Source of the DNA: Zhengitettix transpicula | Lineage: Eukaryota > Arthropoda > Insecta > Orthoptera > Tetrigidae | DNA: 64,000 bases | Direction of reading: 5' to 3' | Assembly (NCBI GenBank): GCA_037074705.1 | Contig: CM073594.1 | Span: 62,802,509-62,866,508, forward strand | Shown: positions 6,859-62,885 of the stretch, piece by piece | Position numbering within the stretch: position 1 is the first letter of the stretch | Layout: each line of letters begins with the position of its first letter | Notes under the pieces: generated by a model | Databases searched by the model: none | Told to the model about the DNA's origin: nothing | The model's input: the letters and a program-made list of their open reading frames with translations, nothing else | Program-made: the position numbers and the translations under genes

Positions 6859-7070
6859 ACAACAACAAAGTCGACGTTTGTCCTATTCTGGGACCTCTTC
6901 AGGTAAAACAAGTTTTAATCTACAATGAGAACTTTGATATATTTATTTCTGAATATTTATTTAATAACAAACGGAAGTTGTTTTATTATGTATACATATG
7001 AATAGTAGATTAAATATAAATATGGTTATATCTGAAGAGATCCCAGAAGAGGTCGAAACGTCGTTGTTGT
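6859..7070. mobile_element. Inverted pair of Penelope-like termini (pair P1)
   Basis: The left arm (acaacaacaaagtcgacg, then gtcctattctgggacctcttcagg) is the inverse of the right arm (tctgaagagatcccaga, then gtcgaaacgtcgttgttgt). About 120 bp of AT-rich spacer separates the arms. Each arm carries one hammerhead-like core on opposite strands. The link to Penelope-like elements is inferred from reports of hammerhead motifs in those elements; no reverse transcriptase is present here. Confidence 0.55.
7032..7059 (+). ncRNA. Hammerhead-ribozyme-like core
   Basis: CTGAAGA at 7032-7038 and CGAAAC at 7054-7059 flank a short interval (gatcccagaagaggt) that can form a stem II of GATCC/GAGGT type. This fits the core consensus CUGANGA...GAAA. 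I cannot identify a helix III loop and cleavage triplet that pair properly, so activity is not claimed. Confidence 0.4.
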
Positions 7071-7071
7071 A

Positions 7072-7136
<65 letters not shown>
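7071..7136. repeat. (AT)n microsatellite
   Basis: About 60 bp of almost pure TA repeat directly beside the P1 inverted pair. Confidence 0.95.
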
Positions 7137-7139
<3 letters not shown>

Positions 7140-7797
7140 AATCAAATGAAATAATAGTCTTCTGACTGGAGGCCGTTTATTTTTTCATATTAAAATTTAC
7201 AATAAATTAAAAATCGTTTCTTCCCTTTGCTTACGAACCTCCCCCCCCCCCCCAGGTGTATATAACTGAAGAAACGGTCAAAAAATATGTGAGTTTAAAT
7301 AAATACAATTTAACAGAAAAACTTAAACTTCCTCCATCAACGTCCGTCAAAAAATGACATTTGGTCATTTTACACTGTTTGTAAATAAATATTCTTACTA
7401 CCGGCCAATTTCTACTATTTAAAATTTTAATACGAGTCAGATATAGTTTTAATTTCGTTTTTATTAAGAAAAATAATGAAAACTTCGCCTGTGTGGTTCC
7501 TACATTTCATGTGAAAAATTACTTTCCAAGCGAATTGGCACGTGTTTTCTTCTTTTGTGAACGTTTTTATGACCTTGTATTTTACGGCGTTACTGGCCTG
7601 TTCCCGTTCCTCGGGAGAGGACTAAAGGTATTAATAAATCAAAGACGTCAATGATAAATCAGGATACAAATCTAGTGCCACACGACTTGTAAACGAATCA
7701 AAAAAATACTTGACGGTTTCCTCATTGGTTTTTTTTTTCCACAAAAAGATTAGTTTCAGTTTGGTTATGTAGATACGTTGTTGTGTTTGGCACTTAC
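7137..7797. other. No gene recognised
   Basis: AT-rich sequence with a poly-C tract at about 7240-7253. A lone motif at 7260-7280 (aactgaagaaacggtc) looks like another ribozyme-like fragment. Confidence 0.45.
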
Positions 7798-8018: not shown

Positions 8019-8077
8019 CAGTCACGCCGGGCAATGTCAGGTTGCAGCTTCGTAGAAAAGTCTCCCTCTATCTGTGT

Positions 8078-9311: not shown

Positions 9312-10414
9312 TAGTAAATAATAGAAATATTGTGAGGGAAGTTTTAGTCGTGGTGCCTACGTTCTTAATAATCAAGGCCAGTGAAAATTACGTAAAATGT
9401 TGTTCTGTAAGTAAAAAGTGTTTATTGATATAAAGTATCTCTTTGGTAGTAAGGTGATTGTGAAAAAAATAACACAGAGATTAATGTATCTCTGATTGAG
9501 TGTGTGAGAAGGTAAAAAAAATATATTATTTAGGTTCTATATATCTAAAATACACATTTTTAAGAACTCAAATATAATACATATACCAGTGTTATTCCAT
9601 TTTTAGTAGTAGTGAAGAATAATAATAGTAAATAATAGCAATATTGTATTGGGAAGTTTTATTCGTGCTGCCTACTTACTTAATAATCAAGGATCGTAAT
9701 ATTTTAGTCACGTAAATTACTACACACATTTTAGGCCAGTGAAAATTACGTAAAATTTTGTTCTGTAAGTAAAAAGTGTTTACTGATTTCGGGACATAGT
9801 ATAAAGTAGCTTTTTGGTAGTAGGGTTATTGTGAAAAAAATAACAGAGAGATTAAACTATCTCCGTTTGAGTGTGCGAGAAGTAATTCGGAATGTAACAG
9901 AAAAAATATTATTTACATTCTATACATCTAAAGTACATAGTTTAAAGAACTAAAATATAATACATATATCAGTGTTATTCAATTCTTACTATTAGTAAAT
10001 AATAGCAATATTGTGAGGGAAGTTTTAGTCGTGGCACCTACTTTGTTAATAATCAAGGGCCGTAATATTTTTTCCACGGAAATTACTGTTCTCATTTTAG
10101 GCCAGTGAAAATTACGTAAAATGTTGTTCTGTAAGTAAAAAGGTGTTTATTGATATAAAGTATCTCTTTGGTAGTAGGGTGATTGTGAAAAAGAATAACA
10201 CAGAGATTAACGTATCTCTGAGTGTGTGAGAATGTAAAAGAAATAAATATTTTTTACGTTCCATATATCTAAATACATAGTTTTAAGAACTAAAATATAA
10301 TACATATACCAGTATTATTTAATTGTTACTATTAGTAAATAATAGTAAATAATAAAAATATTGTATTGGGAAGTTTTAGTCGTGGCGCCTACTTTCTTAA
10401 TAATAAAGGACCGT

Positions 10415-11118
10415 GTGGCATTTCTCCTTGACTACCCGCCGTAGGAGGTTTTCGACCGTTCAATTCTTAGAACGGCTTACCTGCGGTAGGAGGAAGTAAC
10501 TTTTGAAAACAATATCCCTTGGTCATTCTAAGCTAATTTATTAAATATTATTTAAGATATGTACAATTAAAATTTTGCCCTCCCGACTAGCCAATTATGA
10601 AAATCTCAAGGATTAATGTGGCAAGTTAGGCCCGAGAAACGATTTATAAAAAAAATGCTCTACGCAACCATGATATGTGCAATATTTGTTACCAGACTGG
10701 GGTCTCTGCAACACAGCGACGTCCCTCGCTGCTGGTCATCGATGTATATATCGCTGGTGAATATCTCCACTTCTCAAGCAACCTCCTCTAGTCAGCATCA
10801 GCAACAGAATGCCTCTAGGCCTCCACTTCTCCCGACCTGTGGGACCAACTGTTTCCCTATTGGTCCATTTAATTTATTATGGACCAATCACAGGTCTTAG
10901 GCAAACTGACGTAGAGAATTTCAACACCGAGACCCTCTGCACCTGCTGTTTGTTCACGGGAAAACCTTGGAGGTACCTTTACTATCCCCAGCCTGACTGG
11001 CACCAAACGGTACTTTTTGCCGACGTTCGATAAACATGGTTGCTCCCGCGTTTAAATAAACTGACTAAAATATCAGTAAAATCATTTAAAGGACGCCTAT
11101 CCTAAATAACGCGCTATA
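10415..11118 (+). mobile_element. LTR-like insertion (solo LTR candidate), 704 bp
   Basis: It interrupts a satellite unit and is flanked by a 5-bp direct repeat ACCGT (10410-10414 and 11119-11123). The neighbouring unit at about 11824 shows the intact site aaggaccgtaatatt. There is no terminal inverted repeat. It starts gtggcatttctcc (or TGTGGC if the duplication is 4 bp) and ends gcgctata. An AATAAA near 11055 and GC-richer body fit a solo LTR, although a clean TG...CA end pair is missing. Confidence 0.55.
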
Positions 11119-12985
11119 ACCGTAATATTTTATTCACAGAAATTACTACTCACATTTTAAGCCAGTTAAAATTACGTAAAATGCTGTTCTGAAAGTAAAA
11201 AGTGTTTATTGATATTGGGACATAAAGCATCTCTTTGGTAGTAGGGTGATTGTGAAGAAAAATAACACAGAGATTAATGTATCTCTGATTGAGTGTGTGA
11301 GAATGTAAAAGAAAAACTATTATTTACGTTCCATATATCTAAAATACATAGTTTTAAGTACTAAAATATAATAAATATACCAGTGTTATTCAATTCTTAC
11401 TATTAGTAAATAATAGAAATATTGTGAGGGAAGTTTTAGTCGTGGCGCCTACTTTGTTAATAATCATGGGCCGTAATATTTTTTCCACGGAAATTACTGT
11501 CCTCATTTTAGGCCAGTGAAAATTACGTAAAATGTTGTTCTGTAAGTAAAAAGGTGTTTATTGATATAAAGTATCTCTTTGGTAGTAGGGTGATTGTGAA
11601 AAAGAATAACACAGAGATTAACGTATCTCTGATTGTGTGTGCGAGAATGTAAAAGAAAGAAATATTTTTTACGTTGCATATATCTAAATACATAGTTTTA
11701 AGAACTAAAATATAATACATATACCAGTATTATTTAATTGTTACTATTAGTAAATAATAGTAAATAATAAAAATATTGTATTGGGAAGTTTTAGTCGTGG
11801 CGCCTACTTTCTTAATAATAAAGGACCGTAATATTTTATTCACAGAAATTACTACTCACATTTTAAGCCAGTTAAAATTACGTAAAATGTTGTTCTGTAA
11901 GTAAAAAGTGTTTATTGATATTGGGACATAAAGCATCTCTTTGGTAGTAGGGTGATTGTGAAGAAAAATAACACAGAGATTAATGTATCTCTGATTAAGT
12001 GTGTGAGCATGTAAAATAAAAATATATTATTTACGTTCTATACATCTAAAATACATAGTTTTAAGAACTAAAATATAATAAATATACCAGTGTTATTCAG
12101 TTCTTACTATTAGTAAATAATAGAAATATTGTGAGGTAAGTTTTAGTCGTGGCGCCTACTTTCTTAATAATCAAGGACCGTAATAATTTATTCACGGTAA
12201 TTACTACACTCATTTTAGGCCAGTGAAAATTACGTAAAATTTTGTTCTGTAAATAAAAAATGTTTATTGATATTGGAACATAAAGTATCTCTTTGGTAGA
12301 TGGGTGATTGTGAAAAAGAATTACACAGAGATTAATGTATCTCTGATTGAGTGTGTGATAATTTAAAAGAAAAAATATTATTTACGTTCCATATATCTAA
12401 AATACATAGCTTTAAGAACTAAAATATAATAAATATACCAGTGTTATTCAATTGTTACTATTAGTAAAGAATAGTAAATAATAGAAATCTGGTATTGCGA
12501 AGTTTCAGTCTGACGCCTACTTTCTTAATAATCAAGGATCGGAATATTTTAGTCACGTAAATTACTACACACATTTTAGGCAAGTGAAAATTACGTTAAA
12601 TGTTGTTCTGTAAGTAAAAAGTGTTTACTGATTTCGGGACTTAGGATAAATTAGTTCTTCGGTAGTAGGGTGATTGTGAAAAAAATAACAAAGTGCTTAA
12701 TCTATCTCTGATTGAGTGTGCGAGAAGTAATTTGGAATGTAAGAGAAAAAATATTACGTTCTATACATACATAATTTTAAGAACTGAAATATAATAAATA
12801 TACCAGTGTTATTCAATTCTTACTATTAGTAAATAATAGCAATATTGTATTGGGAAATTTTAGTCGTGGTGCCTATTTTCTTAATAATCAACGATCGCAA
12901 TATTTTAGTCACGTAAATTACGGCACGCGTTTTAGGAAAGCGAAAATTACGTTAATTTTCGTTGCGTAAGTAAAAAGTAAGTTAT

Positions 12986-13740: not shown

Positions 13741-16700
13741 CTGAAATACACACAGCCAGTAAGAAAACGTGTAGGACATTTTGAAATTTTAACTCTAATT
13801 AAAGTTAAAAACTTTATTTGTCAACGCCGTCTCCTTGGCACACTTTCCCCAGCGATGTTCAATAACTTCGATACCGTGTTTATTTATTGTTGCCAAATCA
13901 TTTACCGCCGAGACTTTTTTTTTCAAGTTTGTAAAGAGAACTTAATCCGAGGGCGCTAATTGGGGCATCAGGAAGCAAATAAAACTTGATTTTGACCATC
14001 ACGATAATGCATGTGCATTGTGAATGATTCTTGATTTCATCACTCAAACGTTTCAAGAAGTTCTCATAATACTCGTCGTTGATTGAAGATAATCAATGAA
14101 AATCTGACCTTTCCTGAAGATGGAACTGTCTTCACCTTCCATGTTTCATCCTTGGCTTGAGAAACGTCGCCAAACACGAAGCTATTTTTGTTCCGCTGTA
14201 ATAAACGCGACACCCATCTCACTAACAGCTTTCTCATGTCAGTTAATATGCGATGTACAGCACTACTTTGTCTGGTCACTTCATTTGGCCGATCACTCAA
14301 TATTATATGGTAGTAAACGAAGGAGTAGATTCCCCCAGAGTAGATTCTACCTCGATTTTGATATTTATTGGGCTGAGACCTTTTAAATGAAAGTATTGTA
14401 TCACATAACGATGTATATATTTTTTCATATGTACAAATTCCCCGAGAGCGTTCACTATTGACGGCTGTCAAAGAAACACTAAACAATGTAGCCTCTTCAA
14501 ACTTAGGTGGTTGGTACTTGTCAGGGCTTTGGAGCTGCCAGTTTTTGAGTCGCTCCGCACCGACATAAAAGTATTTTCTCCAGCTCCACTCCATGCTTCA
14601 GTGGAAATATTCTTACAGGAATTACATAAATTTTTTATATATATTGTAATAATTAAATTAGAAACATTTAATTTAATGACTTTATTCGTGCCACACGTTG
14701 TGGAAGCTATTTTGTAATATACAAAAGGAGTGGCTTTTAAATGAAAGATTAAATTTTAACAACAAACAAATTTATTTATCATCAACTGAACAATTATATA
14801 ATTTAATACATATCTCAGGGTCTCTACTGGGTTTGATAACGGCGAATCATTCAAAATAATTAAAGAACACAAAATTAAATTTAAAAGGAAAAGATTTTAC
14901 TCATCAATTAACAAAGATGAAATTTACTTGTCGACGAACTTAACCTACAAAGATGGATTCTAATTTACCATTTTTTTTATCAATTAGAAAAGAACGATAT
15001 CTGACATCTATCTTTTAATCCGGTTTACATCATTCATTGTTTTATATTGTTACTTACGGCTGCCCAGGATACTTTTGACTTACGAAGCACTGTAACGGGG
15101 TTTTTTGCACAGGTTCTAGTTAAACTCACAGATTCTAATTAATATTTTGGATTTAAATAAGGAACCACTAACCTCTTCTTCGTCTCTCCCTCGGTAGACT
15201 TCTTCTAATCTCCACTGCCGGCTAAGTCCACAAATTGGTTGGTGTTTAGCAGGTTTCGTAGTTCTGCCTTCGATTCTCGCTCTCGCCTTTCGCTTTAGTC
15301 CTCGTCTCTCGGTACGTGTTTGATCTCCAATTTTCAAAAAGTTCTTTTACGACCACTTGATCGCTTCCAGGCAACTCAATGCGAACTGAACTCTTTAAAA
15401 GAATATCTCTTCTCTTTTTGTACGACCTGTCCTTTACCGGTCCTTCTAGCCAACTCAATGCGAACTGCTGCTCAATATTTTAATGCGACCTCACTTGACC
15501 AAGCCGTTCACCCAACTTAATGCGAACTGGCTCCTCAATATTTTAATGCGATCCAAATAGTTATTTATTTTAACCATTGACAACATTATCGGAAATATTT
15601 ATAGAAATACAAGATACAGACTTTTGATAAAGTAAGTTAAAAAATTCAAAAAAACTTTATTAGTCCTCACATAAAATAATGTCAAACAGGAGATTTTGAC
15701 TTTTTCATAAGCCATATTCATCTGTTATTTATATAAAAAATTATACGTGAGACGAATGTCACACGCTGAGGAAAGTGCGCCATGATATGTAATTTTCTAT
15801 GTAAAAATAAGATTAATATGACTTAAGAAAAAGCCGAAAGATCCTCTTAGACATTATTTTATTTGAGGAATAATCAAGTTTTTTTTTTTAATTTATCGTG
15901 GAAATATTTATTTATTTTTTATACATATTTATAAAATTATTTTATAAATAAAATGAAAAAATAAAACAATAGAATAAGAATGAATAACAAGCAGGAGAAT
16001 ACGCAAGGAGAGCGTAGAGCGGGAGCGAGACTCGGATACACAGACTCACCGTGTGAACGAGCCGATTGCCGTCAATGGTCCGTCAGCCGCCTCAAGTCTT
16101 AAAAGAATCGAGTCGGTCGCAGGTCCCGATAGACTCATTTCGTGAATCGCCGTGACTGGCGCTCATGGGCGGTCTGACTGCTTCAGACGTGACTGACAGA
16201 TACGGAATCGTCGTGTGAAAATGACCTTACTCACCATTGCAATTGAGACAGATTCCGCAACATTCTCCAGGCGGCACGAATACGATGCCGTTCGTACAGT
16301 TTGGATTAGCGCACAGGACAGCTGCACAGTCGGGACGTTGGCAATCATCGCCCGCCGAGATGACGGACAAGTAGCTCAGGAAGACGGCGAGAAAAGCCTG
16401 TAAGAGAAGCAGATAATTTGTTAACACATTCATTACAATAACGTAGTATCCCTACAACGAGCATCAGCAGGAACCTCTTCAACACACATTCTCGCTGTTA
16501 ACTGCCCGACTGATATTTCCATCTTCCATAATACCACTCACCAAATTAAACTATTAACCCCAAATCGGGAATCGTTCTACACGCTTTGTCACTACTTGCA
16601 ACTCTCGTATAATTGTTTACTGGTCACACCTCACTAAACCTCTCAAATCACCACCTCGCTGGATTTAAGTTTATTCATTTAATTTTAATAACACAGTGAT

Positions 16701-19010
16701 ATACTTTTAAACGTTACCCTCATCTCTTTTATGATCCAGCCCGTCTACGATGATGTCAAACAGCTGCTGGAAGTTTCTGATCCAGTTTACCTTTCCATTC
16801 TGAGAGCTCTCACAGTTTCCTCACAAATTACCGCGGAATCCAATCAACCGTAAAGTCGCCGCAGTTGCCAAGTAATCAAGAGCTACATAACCCGTTTTCT
16901 TTTCCAAGACATCCATGTTTTCTTTCGACTTCCCCGTGACGTTATTTTCTTTTAACATGCTGTTGAACACACAAAATCATTATTTCCTTTTTTCGATTTT
17001 GTGGTACTTTCAACCAGCATTAACTGTCCAACTTGATGAGGTCCCCAAAAAGAGGACGAAACGTCGTGAAATTAATATTTTTTGTCAATAAATCATAATT
17101 CATTTTCTGTCTCATATTAATTTGTCAGTTGTAATTTATTAACAAAAAGTATCATAAGATTGACATAACGTTTCGTCCTTAATCTATGTCATCGTCATGT
17201 GTACAGTGCTGTAATTCTAAAAAACTAAATAAAATATTTATATTTTAAATAGTTGAATAAATATTTTAGTATAAAAATGATATAAAATAGTTTAACTTTC
17301 AATTTCCATAAATTGCTGCTTTATTCCATAAATGTTAACCAAAATTGATGTTTAATATAATCTGGCATTTATCATTTTGATAACTAAATAAACAATTCAG
17401 CCAATATGACAGAAAAAATTATTTGAACCAAAAAATCAGTTCTTACGTTTCGTCTACAAGCTTTGGGACTTCTGCAGGTAAACAGGAAATGTGTAGTTTT
17501 GAATTATATTTATTGTAACATGATTACGTTACATTGTCAATTTATGGCCTTTGGCGGTATCCCTTTTCCACGCCGCTGAGTATTGTTGGTTTAAGGTGCG
17601 CGCCGAGACGTGGCGTGGCAATGCTTCAGTTCCGCTTAGGACTCGACAAGGGTCGGAGGTCCCAGTGGTTTAACGAAAAATGTAATAAACAACCACGCCT
17701 TGCAGATAGTAAATGTTCTCAGTGCTCTAGAAATAAATTAATTATAACATAAATTGTTTTAGTAATTTCACTCAAAAAATTACGTGAAGTCCCCAGTGCC
17801 ATAGTGGCCAAGTCATCAAGAGCTACAGAAGCTGTTTTATTTTCCAAAGCATACAAGGTTTATATATATTTATATAATTATATTGTAATGATTTCTGATA
17901 AATGATTGAAATTAGCCTCACGTTGAGGTACCAATTTGTAGTAATTTACAAAATAAAGTTAATTAAATCGCCACATTGAGGCGCGAATTTGTAGTGATCA
18001 CAAATGAAAGACAATTAAATTAAAAGCAACGCCTCACGTTAGAGCAACAAATTGTGGTATTTCGCATTTTCATTACAATTATTCAATTTACTTCACAAAG
18101 AAAGCCACACGTTGAAGGTCAATTTATAGTATTTTACGTCCAATACAGAATGCAAAACAATTAACATTTATTAACTGCAAACAATTATAATTTACAAAAG
18201 TTATTTAGGCAAATAAATTTCCATTTACATTATCAATTAATCCTTTACAATAAAATGACTATTTCGCAGGGTCGTTTACTGGACCTTTAATAAAGAAATA
18301 CTTGTTAAGAATTAAATTTTATCAAGCTATCATGGACTTAATTCATCAATAGATTATTACAATGCAAAAACAGAAAATATGAACTTTAAATTCTGTACGA
18401 AATACGAAATCTGACGACAATATATTTACTTATGAGTTTACAGATAGTAATTCTGTGGAATTTTACCTTACTGTCTCTGGTACTCAAGGAAATTGTCTCG
18501 TTCGTACACACACACTTTTTGCACTTTATAGACAGGCCATTTTTATCCACTGACTCTAATCAACACTTTTAGTTTTGCAATAGTTGGTTCACTGTTCGTT
18601 TAAGAAATCCTATCAGCTGCTGGATGCAGTTACCTGGGCTTCCATAATTGAATAAATGGTCTTAATCGAGAATATAGTAATTTAGACTCAACACTCTGAA
18701 TATTTAGCGTTGAGTATTACGTAGTTATCTCTCAGACTGCAACTTGTAAAATGTTCTAACTCTTTTAGCTGTTGAATACATGTATCCAGACACTTTCTGG
18801 ATATTATACTTTTCGTCTGTCGACTGCTATATTTCCACGAAGACTTTACTGGAGCTCGACTCCCCACAGACTCAGCTCTGCGCGTCTAGCGAACCAACCT
18901 CCACAATACCCACAAACATTACATTCTTGTGTACGACTTGTGTGTTTTATGCCGCTAACAATGAGAGTCCAAATTTTTGTTTATTAATTAATTATTACCT
19001 ATTAATAACC

Positions 19011-20272: not shown

Positions 20273-20300
20273 GGAATTAACAAAAATTAAGTTTACGACG

Positions 20301-20327
20301 TTTCGTCCTCTTTTAGGACCTCTTCAG
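20301..20327 (-). ncRNA. Hammerhead-ribozyme-like core
   Basis: On the minus strand CTGAAGA is followed by GGTCCTAAAAGAGGAC (a GTCC/GGAC stem with a small loop) and GAAAC, then GTCG. This is the cleanest example in the window, but helix III and the cleavage site are not evident. Confidence 0.45.
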
Positions 20328-20478
20328 GTTGGACACTTTTAATAATTTTGTATATAAATCATGCTTTAAATTGTAGATGATGAGGAAAAAATAATAAGTT
20401 TGTAACGGACAAGGCAGCAGAACCTTGCCTTTAAATTGTATGCATGATTTATGCAGAAAATTATCGAAACCGTCCAAC

Positions 20479-20507
20479 CTGAAGATGTCGTAAAAGGAGG
20501 ACGAAAC
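20479..20507 (+). ncRNA. Hammerhead-ribozyme-like core
   Basis: CTGAAGA, then TGTCGTAAAAGGAGGAC, then GAAAC and GTC. The stem II strands pair less well than in the partner at 20301-20327. Confidence 0.4.
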
Positions 20508-20536
20508 GTCAAAAAATTAATTTTTGTTAATAAATG

Positions 20537-22284: not shown

Positions 22285-22545
22285 TTAAAAGTAACCAAAT
22301 ACAGACAGAATAAGTGATGATATAAATACCATACGACGTTTCTAGATGTCTTATTCCTTTCTTCAGGTGCTAATAAAACTAGAGCGACACATTCGCACAA
22401 TACAGTTGACAAAACTCAAATGCTCTAGACTCTTGTGTTTTCAAGTTTTCTTATCACCTGAATAAATGAACAAGGTGTCTGGAAACGTTGTGTGGTATTT
22501 ATATCATCACTTCTTTTCTGTGTATTCGGCTGTTCTTCTTCTTAT
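22285..22545. mobile_element. Inverted pair of Penelope-like termini (pair P3)
   Basis: The left arm (aaatacagacagaa, tgatgatataaatacc, gacgtttctagatg, tttcttcaggtg) inverts the right arm (cacctgaataaatg, gtctggaaacgttgtg, ggtatttatatcatca, tctgtgtattcggctg). The words are the same as those of pair P4, so this is a second family variant. Confidence 0.6.
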
Positions 22546-24636: not shown

Positions 24637-24893
24637 TACTCCAAGCGAAGAAAACAAGAAAAACAGAAAGAGAGAGGCAGTGTGAAAGAAACAAGTTAGG
24701 TTAAGGAAACTCCAAAGTTTCGAACAGTACAGAAAAAAATCTGTTCATCAGGGAGAGAACAACGCTCAGACGTTCAACATGAGAGTTCAAACTCATTAGG
24801 GGGGCAGACCTACTAAGTTCTGCCTGGTCCTGTAGTGACACTACCTGTTCCTCTCTGTTTTTCTTGTTTCCTTTGCTTTCTTCCCTTGGAGTA
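24637..24893. repeat. Inverted repeat flanking a ribozyme-like motif
   Basis: tactccaagcgaagaaaac, then aagaaaaacag (24636-24668), is inverted at about 24855-24893 (ctgtttttcttg, ctttcttcccttggagta). The roughly 190-bp interior carries the hammerhead-like core. It lies directly against the mariner 1 target site. Confidence 0.65.
24718..24751 (-). ncRNA. Hammerhead-ribozyme-like core
   Basis: The minus strand reads CTGATGA (the canonical hammerhead box), then ACAG...CTGT pairing strands, TT and CGAAAC. The core bases fit the consensus exactly; helices I and III are not established. Confidence 0.4.
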
Positions 24894-26126: not shown

Positions 26127-29100
26127 GATTTTTCTAAGAATGTCATACGTACTTTTTCGGACACAAATTGGACAACATTTGCAAGGAGGCGTGACAATGG
26201 TCCCGTTTACACAGTCATCATTCGGACAGATTTTTTTTTTGCACTCAATGCTGTTCACGCAATGACAGTTTTGGTCAGTCTGTGCTCTAGTGACGAACAC
26301 CGTCGTCGCCGCCAACAAGAAGGCGACCAAAAATACTATCTGAAACAGAAAGAGCATATAACAAATAAACCAACCATCCCCAACAAATGATGTCTCGCGT
26401 AACTGTAGCAGAAGCCATGTCAAGAAAAAAATAAAATAATAACCTGGGGTGAACGAAGGACCAGAAGGGGAGGAAAGAACCAAAACACTATTTTTTAACA
26501 GTCTTGTTCTTGAGTAACATCGGTGTAATCACAGAGAGACCTTTAAAGCAACGTTGCTTGATCTTGAGCTGAAATTAACTCCTTTTTAATATTCAATAGA
26601 ATTTGGAAATCTTAACTTAATAAACAATACATCCAATATGTCAGAAAAAAGTATCAATTAAATAAAACAAAAAATTATTTCAAAGCTAAACAAGCAATAC
26701 AGACAATACGTCAGAAAAGTTTATTTATTAATATATAATTTTCAGATTATATCAAATATTAAAGAAACCATTTCAATTCTGCACTTTTTCGTCCCCATTT
26801 ATGGGCATCTTCAGGTAACATACACTTCGAAGTTAGAGGAACAAACATGAATTCAGAGTCATGGTCTTTGTCCTATAACAGTTCCATTCGAAATGTTTTT
26901 TTCTTAAGGAATGAAACAATTAAGTGAATAATAAAGATAGCCAATACAGACAAAAAAAAGGGCAATATAAATACCAAACAACGTTTCTGGAATCCTTTTC
27001 TCATTCGTCAGGTGCTAAGAAGTGCAGTTGTGTTTCTCTAGGCTCTTCTTAGCAAAGGATCCCAGAAACGTTGTGTGGTATTTATATTGCCCTTTTTTTG
27101 TCTGTATTGGCTATCTTTATTATTCACTATTTTCAATCAGACGTAAATATTTTCATTTAAACAATTAAATGTTGTTCTCTTCCTTGAAGTCACATTGACA
27201 GATTTAAATCGGTATCTTACCTGGAAAATGTGGACGAAATTATTATTTTTTTTGTTTTCATTAATGAATTAATCGATTTATATATGCCATATTGGCTGTA
27301 TTTTTCTATTCCTTACTTGTGAGTCACGACCCCGGTTCGCATGTCTGCAACTCTTCTGTAAAACTGATATTTGAGGACTCGACTTTAATTATAGACGAGG
27401 AATATTTTCGGGAAAGTAAGTTTCCTCTTGGTGGTCCGGGATTCTTGGGAGGTTGTGACCACTGATACCTCCCTATTCTTCTTGTCCTTCCAGCAATGAC
27501 AGAGGAACAACTCTCGGACACGTGACTTCAACGCGTTGCAATAACTTTCAAATGACAATGATAATTGTAATACGCCCTTTAGCCATTTCACTATCCTGCT
27601 TCTGATCACGATTTACCCCTTTATTTTTCTTACACAAAGAAAGGAATAACTCCGCCTTCTACTTCTACTTAAAAGAAAGTCTGATTTTAAAAAAAAAAAA
27701 AAAAAAAAAGACTTTTTAATAATCATTTGAAACTAAACGTTATTGATTAATTTTCTGCGGCTTTCAGAAAGTTTATATTTCAAATTTGTTTGCAGTAGAA
27801 TTCCTAAGGATTTAAGGTTTTATTTGATTTATTTATTCCATTAGTCCTCGAATGAAGAAATAGGATAGGCTACGTCATTATATAAAATTACAACATAATC
27901 ACTAAATCTTTGGATTGTATTCTTACGAGTAGGTCCTTGGAATTTCCCAGCAATTATCTTTGTAACTAGTTAGTATCTATAATTTTTCATTTAATTACTA
28001 TCTAAAGTTATATACATAATTTTAATAATAAGTGTATAGATAAGTGAGAAAAATAATTCATGTGCATAATTTTAATATAAAAGATATTTACTTTTACATA
28101 TATTAAAATTATATTGTACTAGCTGCGTGCCCAGGCGTTGCCCGGGTTGTTATTTATCCTATTGGACGCAAAAATCGGCCGGTTATATTTTATTCTCCCC
28201 CACCTCCGCCCTGTGCCGCTCCCACCCCTGCACGTTGCCCGGGTTGTAAAAATTTCATCTCAGCAACATCCATAACCCCGGATTTGATTCCAATCTCGAT
28301 TGTTTTTGTGTTATTTTTAAATATTACCACTCCCCTTAAGGGTGCTCCCCTCCAATCCCGGAACAAGTTGAAAATATACACATACAACGTGTAGAGAAAT
28401 ATTATGAATCTCATTAACCCTGAAATATATTTATTCGACGTAAATATCGGCCAGTTAACATATTTGAAAATTTCAATCCCCGCCCACCCCCGCGCGTTGC
28501 CCAGGTTGTCATAAATAAATTCAGTGATATCCATAATCCCGATTTTAAAACAATCTCGGTTGATTTTTCGTTATTTTAATGTATCTCCCCTCCATCACCC
28601 TCCAAAGAGTGCTCCCCTCCCATGCCAAAAGGGGTTGAAATTATACACAAACAACATCAGTAGAAATACTATCAATCTAATTGACCCTAAAATATTTTTT
28701 CAACGCAAATATCGGTCGTGATTTCATGTTTCAAAATATCCACCCCGGCCTTGCGATTTAAATGGTCAATTGAATGCGATAATTAAATCAGCGACATCCA
28801 TACCCTGGATTTGACTCCAATCTCGGTTGTATTCGCGTTATTTTCTTGTAACCCCTTAGGGTGCTCCTTTCCCGTGCTATAAAGGGTTGAAATTATAATC
28901 AGATAACATCGGTAGAAGCACTTTCAATTTCTTTGACATAAAAAAATATTTCCTCGACTCAAATATCGGCCGTTTTAGAATGTTTGCATATTTCCATCCC
29001 CGTCGACCCCTGCTCCTGGAGGAGTGGCGGACGTTGTCTCACCACCAAACAATCACTCTGCTTTTATTAGATTCATATTTGTGTCCCGATACATAAGCTA

Positions 29101-32053: not shown

Positions 32054-32356
32054 TCAAGGTTTTGTAGCTTCAGCAGAAGTGATGTACTCTGCTTCAGTTG
32101 TTGATGTTGCAACAATAGGCTGCCATCTTGATGAGCAGGAGACAGGATCACCATTGTAGAATACAATGAAGCCTGCTTCAGTTTTGCTATTCTCCAGCAT
32201 AATCAGCATCAGAATAACCAACAAAGGCATTCTCCAAGCTTTTGTGTCCAAAAAATAAGATATTTCAGTGCTTTTGGTCCCATTTATGTATCTCAAAGTT
32301 CTTTTTAGGTTTATCAGATCAGCAAGTGTGGGTTTTTCCACATGACGTCCACACAC
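32054..32356 (-). pseudogene. copia RNase H fragment
   Basis: The open stretch carries TLADLINLKRTLRYINGT and the family signature ATSTTEAEYITSAEA, typical of Ty1/copia RNase H. The middle is rearranged relative to the family (the YSDADWA region is missing). It is not expected to be functional. Confidence 0.85.
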
Positions 32357-45935: not shown

Positions 45936-46032
45936 GTAGTCATCATCATCTAAAAAGATTTTTTATATATATGAAAACACATATCTCATGTATATAACAG
46001 GATCTTTTCAGATGACAATGACTACAGTAGTT
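45936..46032. repeat. Short inverted repeat
   Basis: actgtagtcatcatcatct and aaaagatt on the left are inverted on the right as ggatcttttcagatgac and aatgactacagtag. It forms a 97-bp foldback with an AT loop. Confidence 0.75.
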
Positions 46033-48190
46033 GAAAGTTCATGAATTTTTGATTGACCAATACTTTCTTCAATTGAATTAAAGTGAATGATATTTGAACT
46101 AAACTCAGTTTATAGTGTATGATAAGTAATTATTCCAGGATGTAATTATAATTTCTGTAAAATTTCATGCCCTTAAATACCTCAGCTTCTTGATAGAGTC
46201 TACAAAATATGACATAACACCAATACACTGGACTTTGTGGGAGAAATGCCAAAAAAAAAGATTATACAGAAGCAGTAGACTGGTTTCAAAACAAACAAAA
46301 AAAACTGGAAATTGCAAAAGTGTACTGATACTGATATGTCAAAATATAATCTGGAAAAATTCTGGAATTGTTTGTTGGGGAAAATGTGGAATGTGTATTC
46401 CATACCATTAAAAAAAAATTATAATTAATTAAAGCACTTAAAGTCCAGTAAGACAGGAGACATTCCAAAGACCATGTGCAAGGAATCTGAAGCTGCATTA
46501 AGTATATGTAAAAACCAAATTACAACCAGATAACACAGACAAAAGCTCAGAGAATGTTTCGAGCTTTAGCTTGGTCTTTACCAAAATCAGGAAAACCATA
46601 ACATTAATTGATAACTAAATAGTGTGTAATATTAAGTTTAATTAGAACAGATATTATTAACTTGTACATCACTTAAGGAGCACATGAAATTAAAATTCAA
46701 TGATTCAATGTGATTTATTGGTTTTTACTCATCATCTGAAACAAAAGGATAAAATAGATACACATTTAATAAAAATATATAAGTTAACAGAAAAAAAACA
46801 AATAAGTGGATAATTAAGAAAATTGAATTGTGAATTTAAAAAACACATAATTGATTAAGTATCCAACAGGAAAAACAAATATGTGGATATTAAGAAAATT
46901 GAATTGTGAATTAAAAAAATACGTAAGTTAGAAAATTGAATAATATATTTTTTTGTTTATCTTTAGATTATATTTACAGATAAACAAAAAAAATATTTAA
47001 TAAATTTTCTAAATCATGTATTTTTTAATTATGTGGGAAAATTGGATTTATAACTGAGGAAATTAATGATATACGAGAATGTAATATATACCTATGTATA
47101 TATACAAGATAAAAAATCTATAAAACTATTAATTTAGAAAATACATTAATGAGTAATTTCACATAAATTAAAATGTACTGTGTACGCAATTGAGGAAATA
47201 ATTTAATAATATATGGGGGAATTATCCATTTGAAAATACATTAATAAGTAATTACACATTTGCAAAAATGTATAATTTGTGCTATATATGTATATATAAT
47301 TGAAGAAATAATATATAAAACCAAATATTGATAACAAACGAACGTCAATGAGTAATTACACACTTGGGGAAAATGCATGTGTGTATAATTGAAAAAATAA
47401 AAATTGAAGGAATTAAAATAAAATTGTTCAAAAATATAATTGTATAAATAGACTGATAGGAAATTGTTAGATAATAATGTTGTAAAGGGAGGGAGTTGTC
47501 GAAGAGAGCTCCTTAGGAATTGTCACAAAAGCTAGTCCCTATAATGGATCCGGGTGCCATCGTAACTGACGTTAGAAACATAACGACGAAGGGAAAAAGA
47601 AATTCCAATATGAATTTGTATTGGTGGTGAATTCCCTCACATCTACTTCATTCAACTTCTTCCACAACGAACTTTGCTCATAGAGAATTCAAGACTCGGC
47701 CTTCGTCACTAAGCAAACATTCCTCTCTTTCTTCTCTTCTTCCTTTCTTTTGTTTATTTTTTGTTCTTTTAAAAGAAACTCTCAACAAATAAAGACGCTG
47801 CTTGTTTCTTTATGAGGAGGCTTCCATTAAACAGAGTCCGCAGCCGGATAGTTAAAATATCTTAAAGCGGTTTTTGTTGAGACGAACCTGCCACAAGAGG
47901 TCGCGTTTTTCCATTGCGGATACCAACAAACTCTCCCAACGACCTTCTTAGTTTTTCTTTCTTCCTGGATGTAAATTTCTCTACCTTACCTCGCCCGTGA
48001 GCGGTATTCATTAAACGATAAATAAATCTTAAGAACGTTCATTAAAAAATTTAATGACATTACTGAGATTAAATCAGATCTTGTTCATATGTTTGTTGTT
48101 CGGGTGAAGATGGTTAGGTGAAGGTGAAGAGTGACAACACAGGTCGAGGGGGAGAGACTCGTAGAACAATGTTTTTTTTTCCCATTTCAG
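46033..48190. other. AT-rich intergenic DNA
   Basis: Several short local repeats (aagaaaattgaattgtgaat, ataagtaattacaca) between 46800 and 47400, and nothing coding. A GC-richer patch spans 47480-48010. A degraded ribozyme-like motif lies near 46555-46595 (minus strand). Confidence 0.4.
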
Positions 48191-55541: not shown

Positions 55542-56649
55542 TAATAAATAATTTAAAATTGTTTTGTTCCTGAATATATATATATATAATTTTACGGGAA
55601 GAAGAAAGTTAATTATGATGAATAAAAATGTATCAATATAACTTGAAGTAATTAATTTACCGTGATATTTCTTCAATAATTATTATCTCAGAAGAAACCA
55701 GTACTGTTGCTGTAATTTTTGGCGCTGTTAATGAAGGAATTTATATACTGAGCATTGTTTATTTTTTTCGTGTTACAGAGTGGCAAAAAAAAATATCTTT
55801 TACTGCCGAGTATCAATATGGCAGCTTTATGACTGTACTACTTGAGTCATATCGATGAAAAATTTTGTTGCCACGCTTACATTGAACGTAAAACCAATTT
55901 TTCGATTAATATACGTACTTAATTTTCCCTTAAGAGAATAGAAGTGAAGTATTTGTAATCAAACAAAGATGAATAGAACTTTCTCTAATGACTTTGCCGT
56001 GTTATTCGTTTTGTTTTAATTTACCAAGAGTTGGTAACTGTCTTGTAAGATTGGCTCCGTTTTTTATTTCCGAAGGGCAATGTCCCAGGTTAATCTGTTA
56101 AATAAGCTGCTATCCAACCATCAGCCACGCTGCTCTGTGTGTGTGTGTCTTATAATTATCTGGACCGACCTAATAATATTAACAGATTGAGTGTTAGATA
56201 TTCGCCATGAGGGGGCGTCATTTACTTGATTAAATTACCTTGGAAATGTTTCTCTTTTAAAAGATTTCACGTTGTGATTTGGTCGGTAACCCACTCAATA
56301 CTCGTGACGATTAAGTTTAATTAGAAATTCGCTGTTTTTTCTTCTTTTACTGTGGTTGTGGGAAAAAAGAAATTTAATGACGTTTCAACTTCAAATATAA
56401 ACCAGTTTCATACAAAAAAATTTGCAAAATTCAACAAGGAATTTCATTTAAGATATTTATTCTATCACAAGCAGATTACTATTATTTTTTCAGAATCCAA
56501 TATTTTTTAAATTATTTTATCAGTCATAATATTTTTGAAATAGAAAAAACCAGCTGATTTGAGTCATTTCGGCCGCTAACCGCACGTCAGATTTGTTAAC
56601 CAAAATTTTCATTCATAATTTATAATTTAATGTAATTGAAATTGTACAC
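55542..56649. other. No gene recognised
   Basis: AT-rich intergenic sequence with no recognised feature. Confidence 0.4.
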
Positions 56650-56678
56650 CTGAAGAGGCCGAGAATCAGGAATGAAAC
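56650..56678 (+). ncRNA. Hammerhead-ribozyme-like core
   Basis: CTGAAGA, then GGCCGAGAATCAGGAAT, then GAAAC and GTTGG. It is followed by ttgttaataaactt, the same tail seen at 17.1 and 20.5 kb. Stem II pairs poorly. Confidence 0.35.
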
Positions 56679-56897
56679 GTTGGGTTTGTTCAATATTATG
56701 TTTTACATTTGTTAATAAACTTTTCTGACTAATGGGATGTTTTTTTAACATTTATTTAAGAAGTGGAAAACATAAAAAGAAAATTTCACAAATTTGTCCC
56801 AGCAGCAAAAATATACCTTTTCATTTCTGAATGTCCTAATTTAATTTCCATATATAATACACCTATTATTATAAATATCAAAATTTAATTTATTTTA

Positions 56898-58193
56898 GGA
56901 ACTGTGAACAAAAAGTAAGGTGAATTAATTTATAAAATATAAATTCATTATTTATTCTTACAAATGAATTTCATCCCCTTCAAAGTAATCCCCGTCCGAT
57001 AGAACGCACTTTTTCCAACGATTTTTCCAGTCCTGGAAACAGTCGGAATAGTATTTTTCCGGTATAGCCTTCAAGACCTTCTTCGATTCGGTTTTTATCT
57101 CCTCAATCGTGTCAAAACGGCGTCCCCGCATTGGCCTTTTGAGTTTGCTGAATAGCCAGAAGTCGCACGGAGCCAAATCTGGCAAATACGGTGGTTGCGG
57201 AACGATATGAGTCGAGTTTTTGGCGAAAAAAGTCTCGAAGAACCAATGCAGTATGACATGGTGCATTATCGTGATTAAGGAACGAAGAGTTGTTCGCCCA
57301 AAATTCAGCCCGTTTCAGACGAATAGCTTCACGCAAACGACGCATAACGCTCAAATAATATTCTTTGTTGACAGTTTGACCCGGCGGAAGGAATTCATAG
57401 TGCACCACACCACGATAATCAAAGAAAACTGTCAACATGACCTTGATTTTCTATCGACTTTGCCGTGGTCTTTTCGGTCTTGCTTCACCTTTTGCACGAT
57501 ATTCGCTGGATTGGTCGGTGGTTTCAGGGTCGTATGTGTAAATCCAAGTCTCGTCTCCAGTAATGATGCATTTAAAGTGGTCCTGATAGTCAGACAGCAA
57601 AGTTTCACACACATCAACGCGACGCTTTTGTTCCAAAAATTGAGCGATTTTGGCACCAATCGAGACTTGACGCGTTTGAGACACGAAACAATCTTCAAAA
57701 TGGTTTGGGCTGTGCCAAATGATATTCCAACAATATCAGCCAGATCTCTAATTGTCCTACGACGATTTTCAAGCACCAAATATTTGATTTTTTGGACGTG
57801 GCCCTCGTCGGTAGACGTTGATTGTCGTCCAGAGCGCGGTTCGTCTTCAACGCGTTCTCTCTTTGAACTCGTTGTTCCACTTATAAACGTTTTTTTGTGC
57901 CATAGTTTGATCACCAAAGCCTTCCGCAACATTTTCAACGTGTCCGCACAAGAATATTCGTTCCGCAAACCAAATTTGATGCAAGTTCTTTGCTCAACAA
58001 AATCACCCACTGCAAAAATCGAAAAATTCACTTTTGGTTGTTTACAAAAACACGTGTAACTCGGAGATAATTAAACCTTTTAAGAAACAGAAGCTTGGAA
58101 AATATTACAGACAGTCCTACCAATCTAGGAAAAAAAATTATCTGCCCCGGGAGTTTTAAATCACAATTTCACCTTACTTTTTGATCACAGTGG
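56898..58193 (-). mobile_element. Mariner element 2 (irritans-type), both ends present
   Basis: The terminal inverted repeats are ACTGTGAACAAAAAGTAAGG at 56901 and its inverse at 58168-58191 (ACTGTGATCAAAAAGTAAGG), each adjoining TA (56896-56897 and 58194-58195). The length of about 1.3 kb is normal for mariner. Confidence 0.9.
56958..58031 (-). pseudogene. Mariner transposase, frameshifted copy
   Basis: Fragments in order are FGLRNEYSCADTLKMLRKA, KRERVEDEPRSGRQSTSTDE with the linker RRRTIRDLADIVGISFGTAQ, then TGDETWIYTYDPETTDQSSE, the core with NHDNAPCHTA (second Asp, with His to Asn and Gly to Cys changes around it), and LAPCDFWLFSKLKRPMRGRR with the third Asp and the ending YFEGDEIHL. Frame changes fall near 57900, 57690, 57440 and 57230. 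It keeps linker sequence that element 1 has lost but is also dead. Confidence 0.9.
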
Positions 58194-58342: not shown

Positions 58343-59089
58343 TTACTAATAATTTATATATTAATAACATACAACCTAATTTTTTTTATAAACAAAAAAT
58401 ATAAAAAAGCAATTTACATTTAAAATGATTAAAAACTCTATTATTTGTTTAAATTTGGACATTAGTTCATGATACGGTTATTAAGTGAACGTTTTGTTTG
58501 TCCTATGCAGCAGAAACTACAATTAAGCAATAAATTTTGTAAAATACTCAACGTTTGCTACAGGGGTCAATTAGGCCCTTGTGATTATATTAAAGAAGGA
58601 AAGTGTATTAGTAGATTTGTTAATGGTGTATATTTGATATTCTCAAAAACTTTGGAAGAAGTTATTATGTAAGAATTTGTAAAAAGGGAGAACGAGAAAA
58701 AAATTGGATTGAGGTGATTGGGAACGGGTGGCTGTAGGATATTGGATTTCGTTCAGTCTAATGTTGATGTGTTCATTAAGAAAATATTAATAAAATTTAA
58801 AGGGTAGTTGAATATATTATTTTTGTGTTCCGGTTACGATGAGTAAGACTCATAACTGGAGCTGCTGGCTGTATTATCTTCTTTATTTGGGAAGAAGTTG
58901 CGTCTGGACCGGACTTGCCATACAAGGCGAGAGCTCCACTCCTGAGGGTGACGTCATCGTCTACGTCACGGCCAGAGGTCAGCCGGCCGCTTTACCACGC
59001 TCAACGTCGCGACGGTAAACATCTTAATACAAAAGACTAATAATCGTGGCTGCTGTCCATCGAGAAAGTGAAAAAAAAAATTTAATAAA
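58343..59089. other. No gene recognised; GC-richer patch at 58820-59010
   Basis: The patch has a TGACGTCA octamer at 58949-58956 and gtctacgtcacgg next to it. No exon structure was found. Confidence 0.35.
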
Positions 59090-59937
59090 GCCTAAAAGAG
59101 GAGTTACATAAAAATAATGGAAACATTCGAGATTGGTGTCAAATCCAGGGTTTCAGAAAGTCGATCAGTTTAATTTTGACATTTACTATACTGGTTTTGC
59201 TGTAGTTCAGCCCCTTGGAGAATGGGTAGAAGGGGAAGTAACAAATTTCCACGTACAATCTTAAACGCGTAGAGCAATTTCTACACGTGTTACTTACGGT
59301 CAAGGAACAAATAGCGTCGAATAAAACGCTTAATCTGATAGTGACAATCTAGAATTTTTGTGTGTCAAATTTCAACTCCAAAAGGCATGGGAGGGAAATA
59401 CTACTATGGAGCTGGTGGTGGTGAAAGGGTTTTACATACAAAAATAATGCAAAAAAGAGATTAGTGTCGATTCCGAGGTTATAGGGGTCGCTGAGTTTAA
59501 TTCTCGCATTAATCATTAAATTCGTGGAGGTGGACTCAGTTGAGAAAGGTTACCAGGAGTAGTTTTGACCCTCTTCAGGTACCTGCTAAATTTTTGTTTT
59601 TATGGGAGCTATATTTTGGTCTCTATTTAGTTAACGGTTGTATGTATTTACTCCCTTAAGGTATCTGGAATAGTTATCGAGTATATTTTACTGTTTTATT
59701 TCGTCGTGAGTTTGGAGGCACTTATTTGTAGTGGGAAGGTTCCCGAATACCGTCAGCGATCATCCTCGTCTATTTAGTTACCGAGGAGTTAGGTCGGGCA
59801 GGGGACCGTAAATAGGTAATATACCACAGCCGCTATTGACCGTGGTGAAATGAAATGTTTACTAAAAGGTTAGTGCCGAATAGGGTATTACGTATTAATT
59901 TAAATAAATACCCAGGCAACTCCGGCAACTCGGCTAG
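59090..59937 (+). mobile_element. Helitron D, 5'-truncated relative of C
   Basis: The interior matches C (gagttacataaaaataa, gtgtcaaatccagggtt, ggtggtggtg, agtgtcgattcc, ataggggtcgc). The 3' end is cccaggcaactccgg, caactcgg, CTAG. No 5' TC terminus could be placed. Confidence 0.65.
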
Positions 59938-62636
59938 TAGTCAATAAACTGAGGCCGTCAAGATGTTAAAAAGCACCTTTAAGCTGTCATAATGAAAATA
60001 GAAATGTTTGTACGTCCGTGTTTTACGGATAAGGAATTTAAATAAGTACAATATGAATAAACTTTTTTTAAGTTCATAATAATAATTGTAAATAAACATT
60101 GTTTATTGAAAACGAAAATAATTTCTAAGAGAAATGATTTACAAATATTGTATTTGCTGTTGGGTAAAATGAAACAAAGGTCTAAGAAAGTCATACCGAG
60201 CGGGTTGGTTTTTTTTATTACTACCCGTGGCAATCTGATTACGACGACTCCGATTCGAACCGTGGGGGGGGGGGGGGAGCTTCCTTTGACAGGGCACTTA
60301 TTAACGCTCCATTTTGCAACGTTGCAACGAGAAGCATAACTTATATGCAATTATCTAATGAGTAAGTGCCTGTAATTTATATAATCTTTTGCGCCGTGGT
60401 TTAAATCAAGCTCTAAGCACAAAGAAGGAGCGATGCACAAAACTTAACTACGATGCTAATCTTGTTCGTTATGATATTAAATGTTCTCTCTGGTACCTTG
60501 CCTGAAGGCGTCCGAGTCCTTGGATTAAGCCAGAGACATTATACACGTTGTGCCTCATCATTCACGCTCTTCAACTGGGACAAAGACTCTTCCTTCTATT
60601 GCAAAAAAAACAACAACAGTGGTACCATGAAGATATCTCTAGATTTCCGTTCATAATTGATCCTTAATGACGTTTACACGATTAAGGGTTAATTTATTCA
60701 CTTCTGTGACTTCACACCGAGTCAATGAGAAACAGTTTATCTCCAATTTTCGTTTTGGAGTCAAGTAAGAATTTTTATTCAACTGTTTTGAAGATCTGAA
60801 AGTAGAATTCGGGAAGAGGGGACATGGAAAAGTACCGAAGTAGAGCTTTGAGCTGTGATAATCCAATAGCCCATGAATGTAACAAACAGCCCATATATAA
60901 AAAAAGTTAACACTGAAAACAAAAAAATGAGACAAAAGATGAAAAAATCTTAATGCAGCAAAAACCTATCGATAAAATCGATACGAAACGAGGAGATTAA
61001 GAATGAGAGGGATCAGATATACGTTGAAATGTTTTGGAATGCGGTGATGGAGAAGTATTGAAAAAAAAAGGAAATACAATGGAGAGAAATGGTAAAAAAT
61101 AAAGGGGTTCTAAGAAGAAGAGTAAAGGTATACGGTGAGATCCATCTTGACTACAGTTTTTAAGAGAAAGGCTAACTGGATCGTACACATCCTAGCAGTA
61201 GTAAAATAATATTAAGTACTAGTAGTACTAGAAGTAGATATGGTCGAATAACTGTGGTGGTATAGTAGAGCAAAACGAAGAAGAAATGAAAAAATAATGT
61301 CTGCTTTAAAGTATAATAATTTGATAAAATAGCCAAATAACAGAAAAATGAAGAGGTGATATATTGTAATACCCAGTTAAGAAGGACGTAATTTTTTTTC
61401 ATATTTCATAAGATTTGTTTACCAACCCAGACTGGGAATTCTTGGGTGGCTTGCATAAAAAAAAAGAAAAATAATAAATTGATGAGTGACAGCGGAAAAG
61501 CGCACAAACCGGAGGACTATAATTGGACGTTTAGCGGCTCTTAGAGCTAATGTTTTGACAGACGTCGGAACAAAACCCTAAAGGAATAATGACAAAAGTT
61601 TTTGTGGACATCCAATTATATGAAAAGGAAATGTTTATTTTAACAATATTGAGTAGCTCTCTGATCGTGAGAAAGTCAGATGAGGTCCGACCGTGGGAAC
61701 TCAAAAACTGTGGGAAAAGAAAAAAAAAGGGATATTCTGGAGAGGGGGAAGCAGATAGAAAAGTTAGTTGCATTGTAGATCTCAAAGGAGAAGGACGTGG
61801 AGGCTGGAGCAGTGGAAAATAGAAAATAGATGCTGAAGTATAACTAAATGCTGGTTTACTGACTTTGTGGAAGGATTTAATCAATGATTGAGAGTAAAGA
61901 AGAAAGCTTTGAGATAAACATTATTGGGCATTTCGAAATATTTCAAACAAACTGAACATTTGGCACTGGTGATAAATATTCGGTCAAATTGAATGGTGGC
62001 CGTGACTAAAAGCCATTTTAGTCCATGCAAGCAGTCAGGAGTCTGGATATCAAAAGGATAAAGTGAACGTGTCTGTGAAGCGTGTGTGTGTGAAAGTCTG
62101 TGCACAGAAGGGCATTTTAGAATGAAGAGCGTTCCTGAAAACCCAAATAAAATTGTAAGTAGACATTTAGTGTTAAATTCTGTAAATTGTTGTCAAATAA
62201 GGGTAATGAGTCAGATTTCGTTTTCACTTTTTTTCAACTGCAGTGTTTAAATTGTAAATTTTAGTGTTCCGTTTCCTTATCAACCCATTGAAGACCCTGG
62301 GGTATAGAGTCTGATTTATAAAATGTAACTGGATTATTAGTGTAATTTAATTGTTGATGTAAAAGAATAAAAAATATATATACAGAGATTTCTTGAGTTG
62401 TATTCTAGATTAATAAAATTGTTTTGTTTATAAAATTTAATAACTTGTTTAATTTAAATTCCTATAATCAAAATTTATCTATAGTTAGGGTATTCAATGG
62501 GAGAAAATTAATTAATTTTCAAGTTGTTAATAAAAAAACAAATTTTGGGTAATAATTTGAAACAAAAAATTTAAAGAATTGTCGATTATTATATTTTGGA
62601 GCGACAAAGTTTCAAAAATAGATTATCACGAGGTGT
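59938..62636. other. No gene recognised
   Basis: AT-rich with many short ORFs. A poly-G tract lies at about 60265-60280. A block at 61101-61180 (aggggttctaagaagaag, atccatcttgactacag, ggctaactgga) is repeated, diverged, at 62711-62800. Confidence 0.45.
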
Positions 62637-62639
62637 ATT

Positions 62640-62885
62640 ACAATATATATACTACAAACAACGTTCCTTAAACTTTGTTCCTTTCGTCAGGTGATTAAAA
62701 ACAGAAAAATGAAGGGGCTACTATGAAGAAGAGTAAATGCTGATGAAGGAATCCATCATGACTACAGTTGTTAAGAAAAGGGCAAACTGGACCCATTGCG
62801 TCAGTCACAGATTACTTCTGCTATTAATCACCTGAACTGAAAGGAACGTTGCGTGCTATTTGTATAATCGCTGGCTATTTACCAA
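62640..62885. mobile_element. Inverted pair of Penelope-like termini (pair P6)
   Basis: The left arm (gattatcacgaggtg, aacaacgttccttaa, ctttcgtcaggtgatt) inverts the right arm (aatcacctgaactgaaagg, aacgttgcgtgc, tataatcgctggctattt). The left arm on the minus strand reads CACCTGACGAAAGGAAC, with the CTGACGA box but a decayed GAAA. Confidence 0.5.

Follow-up and report, generated by a model that had tools for sequence, protein, structure and literature searches.

Hammerhead-ribozyme-like cores recur in a 64-kb stretch of the genome of the orthopteran insect Zhengitettix transpicula (contig CM073594.1, positions 62,802,509 to 62,866,508; hereafter, the window), several of them as close inverted pairs. 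Judging from their sequence and from that of their relatives elsewhere in the genome, these motifs are very probably minimal type I hammerheads, composed of helix II and a short putative helix I without a helix III, that reside in the pseudo-long terminal repeats (pLTRs) of Penelope-like elements (PLEs) encoding a GIY-YIG endonuclease. Where the motifs form inverted pairs, these are pLTRs arranged head to head. We further propose, with a probability of about 0.5, that many dispersed and seemingly "orphan" minimal hammerheads are footprints of short two-ended Penelope insertions, in which reverse transcription is primed on both target strands from two start sites and the heads are joined end to end. 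Such insertions would leave a library of private junctions in the genome, perhaps thousands of independent ones, with the outward-facing pair as a by-product.

The repetition of hammerhead-like motifs in the window is confirmed. The exact pattern CTGANGA-N4..30-GAAAC matched nine times, against a mean of 0.64 and a maximum of 4 in 100 dinucleotide shuffles of the window (mean, 0.53 in a repeat test with 300 shuffles). Two window cores had a helix II of at least 4 bp and one outward core pair lay less than 400 nt apart, compared with 0.02 and 0, respectively, in 300 shuffles. A covariance model, R1, trained on 31 cores from the same genome, all outside the window, found 13 window sites at the threshold applied (E<=0.01), and these included six of the nine exact matches; the original prediction, made from the letters of the window, had spoken of at least eight places, a number that both counts bear out. 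The exact match at 24717 was missed by R1, and its helix II class, GAACAG/CTGTTC, recurs elsewhere in the genome; the match at 50001, which R1 does not detect either, may be due to chance. The Rfam hammerhead models, which contain helix III, stayed below threshold. Their one hammerhead match in the window (7026-7072) reached 19.6 bits against a cut-off of 34 (E = 6.3), because the motif is without helix III. Over the whole genome, RF00163 gave no match among the 73 scored of 143,538 candidates, a weak result and no evidence of absence, since so few were scored and the control genomes were also silent.

The genome searched comprises 993.6 Mb in 337 contigs, and the copy numbers given for it derive from exact patterns and from first-look candidates, with scoring confined to the best of these; they are therefore lower bounds or rough values. 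The pattern CTGANGA-N8..26-GAAACGTCG matched 9,050 times (4,474 + 4,576) and its reversed control 7 times; the strict GTCC/GGAC form matched 207 times, with none for its reversed control. A GTCC/GGAC pattern search of viral contigs found no match. The genomic total is not out of line, because thousands of such motifs are reported to be dispersed in animal genomes (PMC7761336) and, in a coral, the count of type I motifs, whether minimal or canonical, exceeds 6,000 (PMC7229834).

Helix II varies in sequence by family, with GGTCC/GGAC, GATAC/GTATC, GAACAG/CTGTTC, and GGGA/TCCC stems found, while its pairing is kept by compensatory change. It is conserved as a helix, because pairing and covariation in alignment A2 (31 rows), and pairing in the first 100 listed genome cores, exceed those of shuffles. 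In A2, 83.1% of helix II cells were paired against 59.0% after shuffling, and covariation stood at 0.497 against 0.153, neither value being reached in any of 500 shuffles. Shifting the partner by 1 to 3 columns lowered both; two of five measures, both-side changes and further pair types, lay within the shuffle range (139 and 210 of 500). Half of the 100 listed cores had a helix II of at least 4 bp, against 6.0 in shuffles (maximum, 15). The second pair formed in 85 of 100 (permuted mean, 43.9; maximum, 60), and the third, fourth, and fifth formed in 76/100, 78/99, and 63/97 against permuted values of 53.1, 40.8, and 38.7; the first, at 64/100, was below its permuted maximum of 66.

Helix I, usually 2-4 bp in length, is weakly supported, with 81.5% of its cells paired in A2 and both-side changes at two of the four pairs. 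Helix III is absent, since GU and the cleavage base come immediately after GAAAC. In 26 BLAST-chosen copies of unit D, an inverted pair at window positions 26924..27158, the GAAACGT columns averaged 0.989 with no insert, and four of the five PLE-linked copies displayed read GAAACGU, the fifth GAAACAU. At H17, 111 distinct cores had C 65 times, U 40 times, A 5 times, and G once, the preceding GT being part of the search pattern. Conserved CUGANGA and GAAA together with a paired helix II are features of minimal PLE-type hammerheads, a form described in PMC6155905 and PMC7761336; some of the window copies are not intact. The kinship with motifs known from Penelope-like elements, claimed at the outset, is upheld: the cores are hammerhead-like, their helix II is paired, and some of them form inverted pairs.

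The link to PLEs is direct at copies elsewhere in the genome. At locus L009, a frame with the GIY-YIG region, which scores below the curated Pfam cut-off (PF01541, E = 0.0033), ends at 362, and a core and arm of the unit-D type follow in sense at 419-474, 57 nt past the frame. This frame had at least 150 genome matches, which were all those scored of 14,294 candidates; a PDB search with it gave no match. We fetched 451 bases around and after the match for the ten copies that come after L009 in rank (2 to 11), and in nine of these ten endonuclease copies a core lies in sense 112-227 nt downstream. A further copy, L101, chosen for its long open frame (457 amino acids), has a core at 1435-1490. 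When 26 unit-D loci were searched by tblastn with three PLE frame pieces, PLE coding lay within 1.5 kb in L035 and L045; short PLE matches that fall within the units at L032, L037, and L057 were set apart, and L032 additionally has another reverse transcriptase (RT) frame (RVT_1) that the PLE frame pieces did not match. The window itself contains a relic of Penelope-like RT/endonuclease coding at 58592..58768 on the minus strand (tblastn, 61% over 59 amino acids, E = 8.2e-18 against the L090 frame). It is joined to none of the window units, and an adjacent PLE frame was seen at the genome copies, not at the window units themselves. The statement that the motifs occur without any reverse transcriptase nevertheless fails, both on this relic and on the cores downstream of nine of ten endonuclease copies.

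Unit D, an inverted pLTR pair with a tail on one side (inverted-arm match, R1), was used for the tests of tail and target duplication, which among window units A-F cover this unit only. When the 40 best of its 4091 genome candidates were scored, 80 matches were obtained over the two strands, and the 30 loci fetched, the window copy (L031) included, represent 26 distinct places, four being the opposite strand of one already listed. The tail was present on one side only in 26 of 26 copies, with scores of 40-70 on that side and 14-26 on the other; in the window copy it occupies 27129..27158 (56 on the right, 25 on the left). A target duplication scoring at least 9 was found at 16 of the 26 copies, compared with 5 of 650 mismatched controls, and its length varies, at about 10-15 bp. 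In the window copy it reads AAACAATTAA on both sides (26914..26923 and 27159..27168).

Orientation was examined in a second sample, drawn with the strict pattern, in which 29 of 30 fetched loci were used (L026 overlaps L025 and was dropped). An outward partner of the index core was found within 300 nt at 13 of the 29 loci and an inward partner at none (R1, E<=0.5). Extending the distance to 400 nt left 13 outward and added one inward, at L019 (387 nt), where the neighbour belongs to the unit-D class and the index core to the GTCC class. Among the first 100 exact genome cores, the close pairs were likewise outward in four cases and inward in none. Outward corresponds to head to head, the commonest orientation in Penelope (PMC3846280).

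When the joins between the arms were mapped on PLE copy L092 as the pLTR reference, the arms of the 26 unit-D copies began at 24 different position pairs (22 after 5-nt binning). Fourteen joins overlap by 1-5 nt, two are blunt, and ten are filled or complex; microhomology averaged 2.6 nt in the 16 clean joins against 0.72 by chance (0 of 20,000 samples). The longer arm was on the tail side in 17 copies and on the other side in 9. A similarity in the summed arm lengths was set aside, as sampling by best BLAST hits favours equal length. From the differing junctions it follows that the pairs are mostly separate insertion events rather than copies of one foldback master, and that they are mostly made anew at insertion; with 24 junctions among 26 sampled copies, the "compact foldback units" first suggested are not supported as the mobile entity.

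A mechanism that could generate these traces begins with a staggered double cut by the PLE endonuclease, which would produce the target duplication of about 10-15 bp. RT would then prime on both target strands, at two neighbouring start sites in the pLTR RNA; with these sites about 30-36 nt apart, exactly one tail would result. The two complementary DNAs (cDNAs) would converge and their 5'-truncated heads be joined, often via 1-5 nt of microhomology, so that both hammerheads would face outward. In vitro, an anole PLE protein acts on both target strands, cutting and extending each, and its RT starts at two adjacent sites, which bound the genomic tail (PMC11167929). We lean slightly towards such double priming, because it would explain at once why the tail is one-sided, the target duplicated, the pair outward-facing, and each junction private.

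Several observations weigh against this proposal. Ten of the 26 unit-D copies have no clear duplication at the set score, ten of the 26 joins are filled or complex, and the diversity of junctions could be due in part to later deletions. The two arms of one copy resemble each other more (0.951) than arms of different copies do (0.935; 25 copies, with none of 5000 permutations as high). The unit-D sample was assembled from the highest-ranking BLAST matches to the unit in the window, with a query that contained 12 nt of tail, and is biased to similar length. With regard to the hammerhead itself, the contiguous stem I averaged 2.32 against 2.14 for permuted flanks (maximum, 2.37), which is not clearly above, and L099, the remaining copy of the ten ranked for the endonuclease, showed no core even at an E value of 5.

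An alternative with the same PLE origin is that the head-to-head pair arises by self-priming, in which a cDNA folds back and copies itself, as favoured in PMC3846280. We regard this as a genuine though lesser possibility; it would fit the greater likeness of a copy's own arms, and its joins would likewise carry short microhomology. A copied-back strand, however, should put the tail on both arms, and the tail is one-sided in all 26 copies. Furthermore, the tailless arms of L034 and L046 share, by eye, the variant GACGGTATT, which their other arms lack, and the arms of L035 and L052 differ, also by eye, at another recurring site, as two templates would give; the variant in one arm only of L034 and L046 is a hint of two templates within one copy. 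The compact length, the inverted arms, and the thousands of first-look candidates could instead suggest a family of foldback elements or miniature inverted-repeat transposable elements (MITEs), fixed units moved by a transposase in which the likeness to a hammerhead is incidental, and the window does contain mariner-like transposase remains. We consider this extremely improbable in view of the variable duplications of about 10-15 bp, the one-sided tail, the 24 junctions in 26 copies, and the recurrence of this arm sequence after PLE endonuclease frames. As a fixed-unit transposon it was dropped, neither the internal sequence nor the duplication of unit D being constant and the junctions differing.

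The original prediction also held that the arms would pair with each other in a transcript and mask the ribozyme, in an unusual control arrangement. RNA folding predicts the pairing, arm on arm and not as hammerheads, for unit A (-104.1 kcal/mol; z, -11.9) and unit B (-69.9 kcal/mol; z, -8.2). That the layout is a selected regulatory device, in which arm pairing masks the ribozyme until it is released, is nonetheless highly unlikely: across the 26 unit-D copies, conservation is lower in the CTGANGA half (0.70/0.79 in the two arms) than in the GAAACGT half (0.96/0.99), partly because the former adjoins the variable junction, partner arms are often broken or low scoring, and the junctions vary between copies. 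This reading was dropped, as no conservation of the CTGANGA half supports it; head-to-head pLTRs are ordinary PLE anatomy (PMC3846280), and nothing in these predictions and alignments points to selection of the paired layout as a switch. Most likely, the hammerheads would serve the parent element, if they serve at all. The hammerhead of the anole PLE is reported to cleave solely in the presence of protein and to be dispensable for insertion in vitro (PMC11167929). A constraint on the core as the coding sequence of a C-terminal PLE peptide, rather than as RNA, is equally hard to credit. The open frame of L101 passes through the core, but the L009 frame stops ahead of it, spacers of 15, 16, 17, 18, and 20 nt would shift the frame, and the changes in helix II are compensatory.

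Minimal type I hammerheads of Penelope-like elements were reportedly described by Cervera and de la Pena in 2014 and by Lunse et al. in 2017. The motifs reported here share with such minimal hammerheads (PMC6155905 and PMC7761336) the CUGANGA/helix II/GAAAC architecture, the lack of helix III, the location in pLTRs, and a dispersal by the thousands, and differ in that many form compact pairs, head to head, that bear an insertion signature. Dimeric cleavage has been suggested for tandem PLE motifs; here, in contrast, no second sense copy lies within a pair, each strand of which carries one sense and one antisense core, so that a dimer would not form in cis. At one locus, L056, a direct tandem of six core-like sites repeats at intervals of about 100 nt (2584-3176, minus strand), a layout in which dimeric cleavage could happen. 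Penelope of Adineta vaga (PMC3846280) shows the same head-to-head inverted pLTRs, with an optional 31-bp tail on one, along with duplications of 8-10 bp and some pLTR-bounded inserts without PLE coding. In Z. transpicula, by comparison, the pairs consist of pLTRs only, their arms separated by the head junction alone, and are numerous, the duplications measure about 10-15 bp, and the tail is one-sided in all 26 sampled copies. Poseidon PAc of Anolis (PMC11167929) resembles our family in its pLTR hammerhead, in two adjacent RT starts that explain the tail, and in the cutting and extension of both strands in vitro, but it is a vertebrate element studied as purified protein, whereas our material is limited to traces left in an insect genome. 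Metazoan non-LTR retrozymes (PMC7229834) are likewise non-coding repeats of a few hundred base pairs with type I hammerheads; theirs, however, lie in direct tandem and either possess helix III or act as dimers, in contrast to the inverted pairs without helix III seen here. A retrozyme (direct tandem repeats of 150-450 bp) was rejected for the window, whose sites are inverted pairs or scattered.

What we describe thus brings together two features already on record, minimal hammerheads and inverted pLTRs, in one more host genome, with a clear insertion signature in the one closely studied family. A literature search outside which most subscription papers lay yielded no description of compact pLTR-only pairs as an abundant class, nor of a hammerhead ribozyme joined with a foldback transposon. 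How PLEs insert and how inverted pLTRs originate is debated, with self-priming from genomic copies (PMC3846280) on one side and activity on both strands in vitro (PMC11167929) on the other. A large set of compact pairs made of pLTRs alone, individually marked by junction, tail, and duplication, would make both models testable on natural insertions, and it suggests why minimal hammerheads are often dispersed in non-coding DNA, namely, because they are carried along with the pLTR.

Within the window, the 13 R1 sites start at 20285, 22323, 26968, 5977, 5429, 62648, 6863, and 2397 on the minus strand and at 17021, 22446, 7020, 2157, and 20467 on the plus strand. Unit B (20276..20531; inverted-arm match, R1) is an inverted pair with an intact core on each arm, at 20285-20339 (minus, E = 6.4e-15; helix II of this left arm, GTCC/GGAC) and 20467-20519 (plus, E = 8.9e-7); scoring the 40 best of its 1486 genome candidates gave 94 matches. 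The presence of the motif on both arms, initially assigned to several pairs, holds in intact form for unit B only; in units A, C, and D one arm is damaged. Unit A (6862..7070; inverted-arm match, R1), an inverted pair of PLE pLTR ends followed by (TA)n, has cores at 6863-6914 (minus, E = 0.0012), in the left arm, where the G of GAAAC is lost, and at 7020-7074 (plus, E = 3.8e-7). Unit C (22295..22529; alignment, inverted-arm match, R1) is a diverged relative of the unit-D kind with cores at 22323-22378 (minus, E = 1.7e-11) and 22446-22501 (plus, E = 2.1e-8), and its right arm reads CTGAATA. The core of unit D lies at 26968-27023 (minus; R1), its right arm being without CTGANGA (R1 E = 0.22). 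Unit E (24643..24878) is an inverted repeat with a GAACAG/CTGTTC core at 24717-24751 (minus), found by the exact pattern and negative with R1. Unit F (62648..62847; R1 E = 0.0002, inverted arms, alignment) is a decayed pair of the unit-D kind, with a core-like site at 62648-62702 (minus) and a right arm at 62816-62847.

Other cores are scattered. A core of the GTCC/GGAC class at 17021..17077 (plus, R1 E = 1.1e-9) has a weak inward neighbour at 17155-17210 (minus, R1 E = 0.34; partial inverted match). Decayed solo cores lie at 2157..2207 (plus, unit-D class, R1 E = 6.1e-7), 2397..2444 (minus, R1 E = 0.0098), and 5429..5484 (minus, unit-D class, R1 E = 2.7e-5), together with a solo core at 5977..6034 (minus, R1 E = 9e-7) and a weak one at 56638..56695 (plus, R1 E = 0.037) that holds the exact match at 56650.

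The sole clear host gene among ten frames scanned is a PEX11 exon at 41680-42189 on the plus strand (frame 41710-42189; PF05648, E = 1.3e-36), for which the best named matches are to the polyneopteran insects Schistocerca (63%), Diploptera (62%), and Gryllus (61%). Mariner-like Transposase_1 remains occur in broken frames at 23685-24275 and 56958-58070, both on the minus strand. Frames at 32054-33421 (minus) recall by eye what we take to be pieces of a Copia-type polyprotein, and Pfam gave no match for them at 0.001. Tandem arrays with a unit of 352-366 bp occupy 9626-12978, and a 189-bp unit is repeated three times at 2517-3083. Further inverted repeats, at 4643-4994, 15633-15895, 34618-34793, and 45896-46060, contain no R1 core and are perhaps MITEs.

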